Assembly (NCBI RefSeq): GCF_000242915.1
Contig: NZ_AFRZ01000001.1
Span: 2,418,001 to 2,482,000 of the forward strand
Reading direction: 5' to 3'
DNA: 64,000 nt
From: Sulfurimonas gotlandica GD1
Lineage (GTDB): Bacteria > Campylobacterota > Campylobacteria > Campylobacterales > Sulfurimonadaceae
Part shown: piece by piece, positions 20,160-27,422 of the stretch
How positions within the stretch are numbered: position 1 is the first letter of the stretch
Layout: each line of letters opens with the position of its first letter
The notes under the pieces: generated by a model
What the model was told of the DNA's origin: nothing
The model's database searches: none
Seen by the model: the letters and a program-made list of their open reading frames with translations, nothing else
Program-made: the position numbers and the translations under genes

Positions 20160-22706
20160 ATGACGAGAAAAGAACTAAAACTCTTTAACGGAAAAGATGG
20201 TGCCAAAGCATATATTGCTTATAAAGGTAACGTTTACGATGTTACTGATAGTAATATGTGGAGTAACGGGGAGCATGAGGGAATGCATAATGCAGGGGTA
20301 GACTTAACTCCAATGATGGCAAATGCACCGCATGCAAGCGAAGTCTTTAGAAATTTCCCAGTAGTATCTACACTTGAAAATGAACCACATTTAGAAAAAC
20401 AGAATTCACAAGATATAGACAAAGAAAAATTAAGAATTTGGTATAAAAAATATCATCCACATCCAATGGTCGCACACTTCCCTATAGTACTGCATCTCTT
20501 CGCGTCTGTGTTGGACTTACTCTTTTTTGCATCTCCAAAAGAGAGTTATGCAATTGTTATTTATTATACATTTTTTGTAGCCACTATTACAGGATTTTTA
20601 GCGATGATACCTGGCTTTTTAAGTTGGTGGATAAATTACGGTCTCTCAAAATCCAAACCTTTTGTTATAAAAATAGTTGTCTCAATTTTCACACTTATGC
20701 TTGGTGTAGTTGCTATTTATATCTATATAAATGATCCAAATGTTGTTTATGAGAGCTCTTTTCTTGGAGTTACTTACCACTTTATCATACTGGTTACAGG
20801 AGTAAATGTAATTATCCTCGGATACTACGGAGGTAAGATTACCTGGGGTGATAGTTTTATGAGTGAAGAAGAAAAAGTCCAAGAGAGTCCTGAAGTTCTA
20901 GAAATAAAAGAAGAACCAGTTTTAGGAAAACTAACTCTTGCTAAAAGTTATGAAGCACCTTTTATCTCAGACTCAAATCAATCAGCAGTTTCATTAAGCC
21001 AAAATAATAAAAAACAAAAGACTAATGAAAAAGCTACAAGTGTTGCTATTCTTATCGGTGGAGCGGCAGGAACAGGAATAGATACTTTAGAAAAAATTCT
21101 TAGTGATACTTTAAAGGATAGTGGTTATTATATTTTTACAAATAAAGAGTTTATGTCAAGAGTACGTGGTGGAAGTAATACTATTCTTATCCGTATCTCA
21201 GATGCACCGATAGAAGCGCCATGCTGGGAAGTTGATCTCTTTATAGCAATAGATGAACTCGCTCTCAATCATGCGAAGCAGAGATGCACAGAAAACACAC
21301 TTATTCTCGTAGATGAAAACTTCTCTAACAAAGAAGAAGGCCTCTGCTCAATCTCTATGAATGAGACAGCTAAAAAACTTGGTAATGCACGCTGTAGTAA
21401 TACATTTGCTGCAGGTATTTTATTTGGAGTATTTGGCATAGAAGTTGAGCCTTTAGTGAAAAATGTAGCTGAACATTTTAAAGATGATAGCATAAATGAA
21501 GAGGCTGTAAAACTTGGTTTTGAAGCAGCTAAAAGTATAGACAGTTCTAGACTTCCAAGCTTTCCAAAAGCAGATAAAAGTAGAGTTGAGAGCCTGCATC
21601 TGATGGATGGAACAACAGCATCTGGTTTTGGCTTTTTAGCAGGTGGTTGTAATTTTGTGGCATCTTATCCTATGTCTCCATCAACTGGAGTTCTCAACTT
21701 TATGGCATCTATGTCTAAAGAGTTTGAAATAGCACTGGAGCAGAGTGAAGATGAGATAGCATCTCTGCATATGGTTCTTGGTGCTTGGTATGCTGGAGCA
21801 CGTGCACTGACGACTACATCAGGCGGTGGTTTTGCGCTGATGGGAGAGGCATTGAGTCTCTCAGGTATGAGTGAGGTTCCTGCTGTTATATACTTAGCAC
21901 AAAGACCTGGTCCTGCAACTGGGATGCCAACACGAAGCGAGCAGGGTGATTTGAACATGGCACTTCACTCAGGTCATGGACCGTTTCCTAGAATAATCTT
22001 GGCACCTGGTTCATTGAGGGAGTGTGTAGATTATGGTTATCTTGCTTTTGAGCTTGCAGACAGATATCAATCTCCTGTTATATATTTAAGTGATCAATAT
22101 TTAGCAGACTCAATGGCGATGATAGATGATGTTGATTTTTCGGCTTACGAGCAACGACGTTACATTACTCATACAGATTCTGAGTATGAAAGATATGTAG
22201 AGACTCCAAATGGAGTAAGTCCTAGAGGTGTTCCAGCATTTGGTGAAGGTCTTGTATGTTCAGAAGGACATGAACACGATGAGAGAAGTCAGATAACGGA
22301 AGACTACAACAAGCGGGTTGTGATGGCAAATAAGCGAGCCAGAAAAGAAGAAGCTCTAATCTTAGAAGCCATTGCACCTGAGTATATCGGTGATGGTGAT
22401 ATAGCAGTAGTGGGTTGGGGTTCAACCAGTGGAGCGATAGCGGAGGCAGTAAAACTGCTTGATAATTCACGTTTAGTTCAAGTCCATTTCACATGGGTTC
22501 ATCCGCTAAATCCAGAGCACCTAGAAGCCCTTAAAAAGTACAAACACATTATAGTTGTGGAGAATAATGCTGATGGAGCATTTGCCGACAGACTTAAAAT
22601 ACAAGGTGTTAAGATTGATAAAATAATTTTACAGTTTAATGGATTTGCATTTTTTGCAGACCAGTTAAGAGAGATAATTTTAAAAGAACTCAAGGAGCTA
22701 TTATGA
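20160..22706 (+). CDS. Fusion: cytochrome b5-like domain + DUF2231 membrane domain + 2-oxoacid:acceptor oxidoreductase gamma/alpha subunit
   Basis: A single 848-residue frame. Residues 1-75 match bacterial cytochrome-b5-like heme-binding domains ([35 protein letters not shown]). Residues about 98-225 form four transmembrane helices with the DUF2231 start [17 protein letters not shown] charged linker (230-292) leads to the oxidoreductase gamma domain ([16 protein letters not shown]). From about 480 comes the alpha domain ([45 protein letters not shown]). There is no internal start at the joint. The next gene is the TPP-binding beta subunit. This would tether a pyruvate- or 2-oxoglutarate-type ferredoxin oxidoreductase to the membrane next to a heme. 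The substrate is not decided by sequence. Confidence 0.88.
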
Positions 22707-23548
22707 GCCATGTATTTGATCGTAAAGATGTAGATGTAGCTTGGTGTCCTGGGTGTGGTAACTTTGGCATCTTGAAACTTATTAAAGAAGTTCTTGAAGA
22801 GTTAGGCTCTGATCATCGCAGCAGTGTTATAGTCTCAGGTATCGGACAAGCTGCAAAAACTCCTTACTACATAGATGTAAACATGTATGGAGTTCTTCAC
22901 GGTAGAGCGCTTCCTGTTGCCACCGCTATAAAGGTTGCAAATCCTGAGTTAAATGTTATAGCAGAGGGTGGTGATGGTGATATGTATGGCGAAGGAGGAA
23001 ATCATTTTCTTCATACTATCAGACGTAATGTTGACATAGTCCACATAGTTCATAACAACATGGTTTACGGACTAACAAAAGGTCAAGCTTCTCCTACGAG
23101 TCAAAAGGGCTTTAAAACAAAAGTGCAGGTCGATGGAGTAGGTAATGAACCATTTAATCCTTTGAGTGTTGCCTTGGCTCTAAATGCAGGCTTTGTATCA
23201 CGTGTAAATATTGGAAACTCCGCTCATGCAAAAGAAGTGATAAAAGCTGCTTTTATGCATAAGGGTTATGCACTTGTAGATATCTTTCAGCCATGTGTTA
23301 CTTTTAATAAGACAAACACATATAAGTGGTTTAAAGAAAATACCTACCTGCTAGATGCAACTCATGACCGGAGTGATATGGCATCTGCTATGAGTAAAGC
23401 TTTTGAAGCGATGCCGATGCCTCTTGGCGTCTTATATAAAAATGAAAGTGTGACGTTTGAGCAACGCATCCGAAAAGGTGAGACTACTCCGCTATATGCA
23501 TCTAAGCATGATCTTGGGGAGATTCAGAAGAAGTTTGAGAGTTTTTAA
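22703..23548 (+). CDS. 2-oxoacid:acceptor oxidoreductase beta subunit
   Basis: This 281-residue TPP-binding subunit has CPGCGNFG near the N-terminus, the TPP/Mg motif [12 protein letters not shown] and the [15 protein letters not shown] segment. With the preceding alpha subunit it forms a two-subunit enzyme that oxidises or, in the reductive TCA cycle, makes 2-oxoacids using ferredoxin. Cysteines for the usual 4Fe-4S cluster are partly visible (Cys in WCPGCG and a later PCVTF). There is no separate delta (ferredoxin) subunit. The ATG overlaps the alpha stop by four bases, indicating translational coupling. Confidence 0.93.
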
Positions 23549-26239: not shown

Positions 26240-27349
26240 TTATTTAACGATGTATGTCTCTTTTTTAAGTACATAAAACTTTTTAGCCACTTCATCTTTG
26301 TCAAGTCCAAACTTCTTAAGTGCTTTTGGCTTAACTAGAAAGTAACCAAGTGTTACATGCACTTTGTCACCTTTTAGCAGTTCTTTTTTATAAGTAACTA
26401 CACGTTTTTCATTTGCTTTAATCATAGTATCTTTTATGACTGTATTTGCAACCCACGGAGGTGTAGGTTTTCCATCTTTTCCAATAACTCGTACAAACAC
26501 TTCAGGCTCGAATTTATCAATCTTACCATTTCTCTCCACACTAACGCGCAGTTGAGACATACGCAGCGGATGCAGAAGTAGGGCATGAGAGCTTTTGTTG
26601 TTAACTGCAACTTCAAAGCTACCAATATTATTTAGAAACTCTAGTTCTATATATTTTGATAACATGTCTTGGTTAGTATGAGCCCCTGGAAAACCATGAA
26701 AACTGTGTTCTTTAGTATCTCTGACATTTGATGCTGAACCACTTACTTTTGGCATGTGGCACGATACACAGTTAGCTCTATCCATCTCATTGCTTATATT
26801 TGTTGAACAAACATTTAGGTTTGCTTTGTTCTTCTTATGAGAGTGACAACCTATGCATACGTTTCCATTTTGAAAATTTTCATTCTCTGATGATGAAGTG
26901 TGAAACTCACTTTTAAGTGCATTTTTCATAGTTCCAAAATAGTGTTTCTCTTTTTTAGAGACAACATTTGTGTTTGACATATCACCATGTTCGATAGACT
27001 CTATACGATGGCAGTATGCACAAGAGATACCTTCAGTATGAGTAGAATCTGTCGCATCCGGAACACCTTTTGTTCCTTTGCCAAGCATGTCTTTTAGATT
27101 ACTTGCAGTCGGTGTATGACACTTAGCACATTTATATTTTCCTTGTTTTGTGTTCATAGGATGCTTGTCCCATACGGCTTTATGGATTGGGTCCTTAAAG
27201 ATTGTAGAGTTTTGGTGCATAGTGCTCTCATACTCTTGACTAATCACAGGGTGACAACTTTTACACTCACTGTTTGGAGCAAACTTTGAATTTGCAGTTA
27301 ATAGAGTGTTAAACAATAAAAATATCGTTAGCAGATATTTAATTTTCAT
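26240..27349 (-). CDS. Periplasmic pentaheme c-type cytochrome
   Basis: After choosing the ATG at 27347-27349 (AAAGGA upstream), the protein is 369 residues with a signal peptide (MKIKYLLTIFLLFNTLLTA). It has five heme sites: CKSCH, CAKCH, CAYCH, CIGCH and CVSCH. The C-terminal 120 residues lack hemes and look like a beta-rich domain. It resembles multiheme cytochromes of the c554/hydroxylamine-oxidoreductase-related group, but the fold and substrate are not certain. It lies between the porin and the two-component genes, all in one direction, suggesting a respiratory or electron-donor function controlled by that system. Confidence 0.85.
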   Translation of the reverse strand: MKIKYLLTIFLLFNTLLTANSKFAPNSECKSCHPVISQEYESTMHQNSTIFKDPIHKAVWDKHPMNTKQGKYKCAKCHTPTASNLKDMLGKGTKGVPDATDSTHTEGISCAYCHRIESIEHGDMSNTNVVSKKEKHYFGTMKNALKSEFHTSSSENENFQNGNVCIGCHSHKKNKANLNVCSTNISNEMDRANCVSCHMPKVSGSASNVRDTKEHSFHGFPGAHTNQDMLSKYIELEFLNNIGSFEVAVNNKSSHALLLHPLRMSQLRVSVERNGKIDKFEPEVFVRVIGKDGKPTPPWVANTVIKDTMIKANEKRVVTYKKELLKGDKVHVTLGYFLVKPKALKKFGLDKDEVAKKFYVLKKETYIVK

Positions 27350-27422
27350 ATGTATCCTTTTTGTTAAATCTAAATTGAAACACAAACTATAAGAAAAATG
27401 TATGAATTAGATATTAATAAAA

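Follow-up and report, generated by a model that had tools for sequence, protein, structure and literature searches.

The window analysed here is a stretch of 64,000 nucleotides from the genome of Sulfurimonas gotlandica GD1, which consists of one contig of 2.95 Mb. An open reading frame at 20160-22706 (+) encodes 848 amino acids and joins, in one frame, a cytochrome-b5-like domain, a DUF2231 membrane part, a linker and the gamma and alpha parts of a 2-oxoacid:ferredoxin oxidoreductase (OFOR). It is followed by a frame for a 281-residue beta subunit (22703-23548, +), and the two overlap in the four bases ATGA (22703-22706), as the initial annotation had stated. The nearest named relative of the 848-residue protein comes from a Sulfurimonas MAG. 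The locus comprises the following features:

20160..20378, plus strand: cytochrome-b5-like domain, residues 1-73 (Pfam Cyt-b5; 51-55% identity to 6nzx/6vz6; conservation)
20379..20441, plus strand: variable hinge, residues 74-94 (26% mean pairwise identity, 17 fused relatives)
20442..20852, plus strand: DUF2231 part with four transmembrane (TM) helices, residues 95-231 (Pfam, AlphaFold model, hydropathy, conservation)
20845..20861, plus strand: Shine-Dalgarno-like GGGGTGAT, 6 nt, ATG of codon 234 (sequence; compared with L008-L012)
20853..21035, plus strand: disordered linker, residues 232-292 (length and identity in relatives; model confidence)
21036..21569, plus strand: gamma (POR) domain of OFOR, residues 293-470 (Pfam POR; TIGR03710)
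21570..22706, plus strand: alpha part of OFOR (POR_N and C-terminal domain), residues 471-848 and stop (POR_N; TIGR03710; homology to 5b46, 5b48, 6n2n)
22703..23548, plus strand: beta (TPP-binding) subunit with ATGA overlap (TIGR02177; alignment to 5b46_B, 6n2n_B, 8ys5_C)

Anaerobic and CO2-fixing metabolism depends centrally on OFORs, which are usually treated as soluble, ferredoxin-linked enzymes. The fusion suggests that here the membrane receives or conducts the electrons, so that soluble ferredoxin is not their only destination. With the N-terminal part as query, Pfam Cyt-b5 (PF00173) matched residues 2-66 with 30.2 bits (gathering cut-off 23.7); DUF2231 (PF09990) matched residues 101-231 with 41.6 bits (cut-off 26.4). 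Further downstream, POR covers residues 303-454 (E 6.5e-26) and POR_N residues 493-723 (E 1.1e-49). The alpha chain scores 563.7 bits against TIGR03710 (residues 295-838; curated cut-off 482.75), and the beta subunit 340.8 bits against TIGR02177 (curated cut-off 261.9). These domains, together with independent genomes carrying the same fused frame, bear out the three-part fusion in one 848-residue frame that had been proposed from the window.

Since the parts form two overlapping genes in Sulfuricurvum and genome G254, the fused frame could in principle stem from an assembly error, either a lost stop or a frameshift that merged neighbouring genes. The probability of such an artefact is negligible: a search for the same architecture elsewhere found the fused frame in at least 18 other genomes from two Campylobacterota families, in several cases on a single contig; their linkers differ in length, and they have a full-length identity to the window protein of 46-75%. 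The initial annotation had named a stop between residues 230 and 292, or relatives with the two parts as separate non-adjacent genes, as evidence that would speak against the fusion; no such stop is present, and the split parts adjoin in every case seen. Compared with the relative L008, dN/dS is 0.13 for the N-terminal part, 0.13 for the enzyme part and 0.58 for the linker, which indicates that the N-terminal and enzyme parts are under equal purifying selection.

A contig scan and whole-genome protein searches found the system in two families of the class only. Among 397 genomes of the class, the enzyme occurs in 23: 15 have the fused form, five encode the N-terminal part as a separate adjacent gene (G254, G363, G334, G386, G413), and three have the enzyme without it (G016, G281, G021). 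Thus, both parts are present in 20 genomes, the enzyme only in 3, the N-terminal part only in 0 and neither in 374 (Fisher p 7e-31, a value that ignores kinship, as related genomes are not independent). The frame is intact in GH10, Loclat, a Sulfuricurvum MAG (L009 = G443), RIFOXYB12/G230, G193, G392, G146, G331, G221, G314, G384, G396, G385, G416, G419, G216, G532 and G540, where GH10, Loclat, the Sulfuricurvum MAG, G532 and G540 lie beyond the 397-genome sample. One of the 15 fused cases (G321/L010) has an in-frame TGA (L010:6976-6978) at an otherwise invariant Trp codon; this interrupts an otherwise intact frame and could reflect a MAG error, decay or recoding. Sulfuricurvum (g21) mostly has three separate genes, with overlaps of the ATGA type in G363 and G334. 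An apparent KorA-KorB fusion in G416 was rejected, since its 1185-aa frame is merely longer at the upstream end, with beta encoded by a gene of its own. The N-terminal part is also not a common stand-alone protein of the phylum: no such case occurred in the 397 genomes, and the sole one seen is L013/G015. Among plasmids, 5 records matched the cytochrome-b5 domain only, and none covers DUF2231.

The cytochrome-b5 domain is 51-55% identical over ~72 residues (Z 14) to the solved archaeal domains 6nzx (Hadesarchaea) and 6vz6 (Methanococcoides burtonii), in which His39, His43 and His58 are conserved as in the window protein. 6NZX is listed as a b-type cytochrome in a review (PMC7096707). Unlike the window domain, both were solved as isolated domains with no known joining to an OFOR. 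All eight histidines highlighted by the initial annotation proved conserved, being invariant in 24/24 sequences with 46-72% identity to the window protein (His39, 43, 58, 99, 101, 106, 112 and 207); the third cytochrome-b5 histidine is, however, residue 58 and not 57. Since a Bacillota relative keeps His39 and His58 and lacks His43, the former two are the likely axial ligands. A heme in the cytochrome-b5 domain is a well-supported prediction. The domain is followed by the hinge, which drops to 26% mean pairwise identity versus 62-63% on both flanks.

The predicted membrane anchor held up, as hydropathy and the AlphaFold model both give four TM helices (H102-124, H128-160, H166-191, H201-229). 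The model of this block has a pLDDT of mostly 93-98, which is lower at the TM2-TM3 turn. Counted as Lys plus Arg, the mean loop charge on one side is 5.8 ahead of helix 1, 1.25 in the loop joining helices 2 and 3, and 1.6 past helix 4; the loops on the opposite side average 0.67 and 0.25. The even number of helices and this charge pattern would place the cytochrome-b5 domain and the enzyme in the cytoplasm, and we infer that both ends of the chain are cytoplasmic, as the enzyme requires. In this topology, His99-112 lie nearer the cytoplasmic face and His207 nearer the outer one; at opposite faces, these residues form no obvious single bis-His heme site. As to a b561-like membrane b-type cytochrome, with bis-His sites inside the four-helix bundle, invariant histidines are present in helices 1 and 4, but at differing depths. 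When DUF2231 was compared by fold in search of a specific heme-protein relative, the matches were non-diagnostic, with heme-linked membrane proteins scoring no better than generic four-helix bundles. The earlier proposal that electrons run via a membrane heme is supported in part: a heme in the cytochrome-b5 domain is well backed, and one within DUF2231 is only a guess. The four helices and the HP...HF motif in the first helix are as in the DUF2231 family in general. The same genome encodes DUF2231 in two further, separate proteins (L076, L077) whose gene contexts differ. Both carry HP...HF motifs, and the neighbourhood of the one in L077 includes a small c-type cytochrome and a frame resembling a flavocytochrome-type sulfide dehydrogenase.

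Starting from Trp229, the linker spans 34-73 residues in the relatives at 13% identity, and its pLDDT is mostly 23-35. Being disordered and hypervariable, it would act as a flexible tether that lets the cytochrome reach the beta cluster. A soluble catalytic part would thus be held at the membrane, in line with the earlier view of a membrane-tethered enzyme. A short YE(A/V)PF-like motif occurs in the window (20970-21030) and in the otherwise unconserved linkers of L008, L009, L015 and L017-L020; it is a possible docking peptide.

The frame had been described as having no internal start. This does not hold for the window, as an in-frame ATG is present at codon 234 (20859-20861), with GGGGTGAT six bases upstream (20845-20852). 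It sits where the stand-alone N-terminal part ends in L013, and the split form has its own separate KorA starts. Both observations would fit a codon-234 start in the window genome, from which a soluble gamma-alpha chain would be made, either in addition to the full-length protein or in its place. However, all 5/5 fused relatives inspected (L008, L009, L010, L011, L012) lack a start codon at that position, so that a conserved internal start was rejected, and the split form dispenses with most of the linker preceding KorA. We thus regard internal initiation as quite unlikely.

The enzyme itself resembles the archaeal-type two-subunit StOFOR1/2 of Sulfolobus tokodaii (5b46/5b48) and the bacterial two-chain enzyme 6n2n in its fused gamma-alpha chain and separate beta, the TPP motif, the CXXC motif and the lack of an intramolecular ferredoxin domain. 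Unlike the window enzyme, these are soluble proteins with four cysteines at the cluster, and they lack both a cytochrome and a membrane part. The beta subunit keeps Cys15, Cys18 and Cys198, which are invariant, but in 25/25 sequences Gln49 replaces Cys46 of the SGIGC motif (5b46_B numbering). Four Cys ligands for the sole [4Fe-4S] cluster were hence not found, three Cys and Gln49 occupying these sites. Cysteine stands at the equivalent position in the solved homologues, in OorB of the same genome (SGIGCSGR) and in two plasmid homologues. The predicted three-Cys cluster is perhaps one of raised potential or a three-iron form. Glutamine is also found at this site in a plasmid-borne OFOR beta of Peptoclostridium acidaminophilum (L078:4968-5560, with the frame broken further downstream), which has no N-terminal part, and so Gln49 is not specific to a membrane route.

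The window genome also encodes OorA and PorA homologues, so the fused enzyme is an additional OFOR. The four-subunit OorDABC/PorCDAB of Campylobacterota belong to the same superfamily and are present in this genome as well; they differ in being soluble, multi-subunit and devoid of a cytochrome part, and the genome's own OorB keeps the cluster cysteine. Among the matches listed, all NCBIfam equivalogs that would fix the substrate stayed below their cut-offs (e.g. PRK11869, 410 vs 438 bits).

The neighbourhood was compared by identifying adjacent genes by eye and by similarity between loci. Ten genomes from several genera and two families (L009, G193, G392, G146, G331, G221, G314, G384, G254 and the anchor-less G016) have a superoxide dismutase gene immediately upstream in the same orientation, with gaps of mostly 14-64 bp. 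Such a gene is nearby in two more genomes, and none is directly upstream in the window. In four Sulfuricurvum genomes, ppsA (PEP synthase) is directly upstream. The respective genes are:

L009:101-781, operon strand: Fe/Mn superoxide dismutase, directly upstream
L014:4063-4743, operon strand: the same
L068:7971-8651, operon strand: the same
L070:8087-8767, operon strand: the same
L017:4130-4795, operon strand: the same
L069:8133-8798, operon strand: the same
L060:8066-8743, operon strand: the same
L062:8170-8850, operon strand: the same
L061:2779-5211: PEP synthase, directly upstream of the unfused cytochrome-korA-korB operon

The adjacency of ppsA mildly favours pyruvate as substrate, and pyruvate is accordingly somewhat favoured over 2-oxoglutarate. 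The window also holds, at 26240-27385 (-), a multi-CxxCH cytochrome-c-like protein, whose neighbours are a two-component system and a gene of porin-like type.

In a tree built from the KorA portion, the three-gene form of Sulfuricurvum stands apart and the fused form accounts for nearly all of the remaining clade, a topology to be read with caution because of long branches. G254, with separate genes, falls within the fused clade, as do G016 and G281, which lack the N-terminal part. Judged from sequence comparison, the anchor was lost at least four times (G016, G281, G021, G427), twice by in-frame deletion. G281 (L063:5212-6975) keeps the first 16 and G021 (L007, minus strand) the first 18 cytochrome-b5 residues; both remnants are joined in frame to the linker or KorA and retain their start signals, which marks them as two clean deletions with different breakpoints. 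Direct repeats were considered as the cause, but the 7-8-base matches in some relatives are not convincing. G427 has no separate gene for the N-terminal part between ppsA and korA. Conversely, L013/G015 has the N-terminal part alone at the position equivalent to the window, where it is likewise flanked by ABC-F and DAHP-synthase genes, with all histidines kept and no enzyme at the locus. Together, the losses and the lone N-terminal part of L013 show that the parts are separable, yet they stay together in most genomes. As the enzyme is kept after loss of the anchor, the membrane route would not be obligatory, and the core can use another acceptor.

The repeated loss of the N-terminal part from a retained enzyme, the dismutase gene directly upstream in ten genomes and the lack of a clear heme pair in DUF2231 would also fit a role without quinone conduction. 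The N-terminal part might anchor the enzyme at the membrane, near oxygen-consuming oxidases or a partner, or it might sense or absorb oxygen or redox changes and so shield an oxygen-sensitive enzyme, with ferredoxin or flavodoxin still as the acceptor. We consider this doubtful, as eight histidines are invariant over 46-72% identity, those within the helices included, which exceeds the needs of an anchor. In addition, among solved structures the domain is closest to cytochromes b5, and Gln49 speaks against an unchanged ferredoxin-type cluster.

The best explanation, to which we assign a probability of about 45%, is a tethered OFOR that passes electrons from 2-oxoacids via cytochrome b5 to menaquinone, with heme, quinone and substrate putative. 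If correct, the alpha-beta core would oxidize a 2-oxoacid with CoA on TPP, and the electrons would exit by way of the only iron-sulfur cluster in the beta subunit, which has three Cys and Gln49. From there, the cytochrome-b5 heme, mobile on the linker, would accept them and hand them through the DUF2231 part to menaquinone. Such a system would connect 2-oxoacid dehydrogenation to the respiratory chain, which may benefit microaerobic sulfur oxidizers, in which ferredoxin-linked enzymes would be oxygen-sensitive. More tentatively, the protein may be a 2-oxoacid:quinone oxidoreductase in a stricter sense, in which an altered-cluster OFOR bypasses ferredoxin through a heme relay in cytochrome b5 and DUF2231 to menaquinone, and lineages that cleanly delete the membrane module would switch to a soluble enzyme.

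The direction of electron flow can be judged from standard potentials, which lie at about -80 mV for menaquinone and about -500 mV for the acetyl-CoA/pyruvate and other 2-oxoacid couples, making oxidation strongly downhill. We therefore infer the oxidative direction, in which electrons would run from beta through the heme to the membrane, with menaquinone as acceptor. For comparison, the cluster potential of StOFOR1 is -545 mV (PMC5020499). The opposite flow, CO2 fixation by quinol-driven reductive carboxylation through the membrane heme, had been offered as one function. The hosts are close to autotrophs that one study describes as users of the reductive TCA cycle (PMC12403661), and the ppsA adjacency in Sulfuricurvum fits a supply of pyruvate for PEP synthesis. 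Such a reaction would, however, have to lift electrons from about -80 to about -500 mV. The gap of ~0.4 V per electron is larger than the pay-off of a single charge movement across the membrane, and the operon encodes no ion-pumping subunit. Quinol-driven CO2 fixation is thus thermodynamically unlikely, and we give it a very slim chance; the oxidative reading, in which electrons leave 2-oxoacids, remains.

One study (PMC12403661) describes a two-subunit Oor from Campylobacteria of mangroves, Thiomicrolovo among them. In some strains this is probably the gene described here, so that the gene as such has been seen before. In its accessible text, that study treats the two-subunit Oor as ordinary, mentions no cytochrome or membrane part and does not use the word 'fusion'. 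Our search of accessible article texts found none on the cytochrome/membrane fusion or the Gln substitution, and nothing on DUF2231 together with cytochrome b5. Papers that pair 2-oxoacid ferredoxin oxidoreductase with cytochrome b5 are, by title and abstract, apparently unrelated.

If the oxidative reading is true, this conserved cytochrome-wired OFOR with one replaced cluster ligand would couple the oxidation of 2-oxoacids directly to the quinone pool. DUF2231, a family of unknown function, would likewise gain a testable role. The naturally split, fused and anchor-less orthologues offer a ready comparison set, and cultured strains exist for the genera of some hosts.
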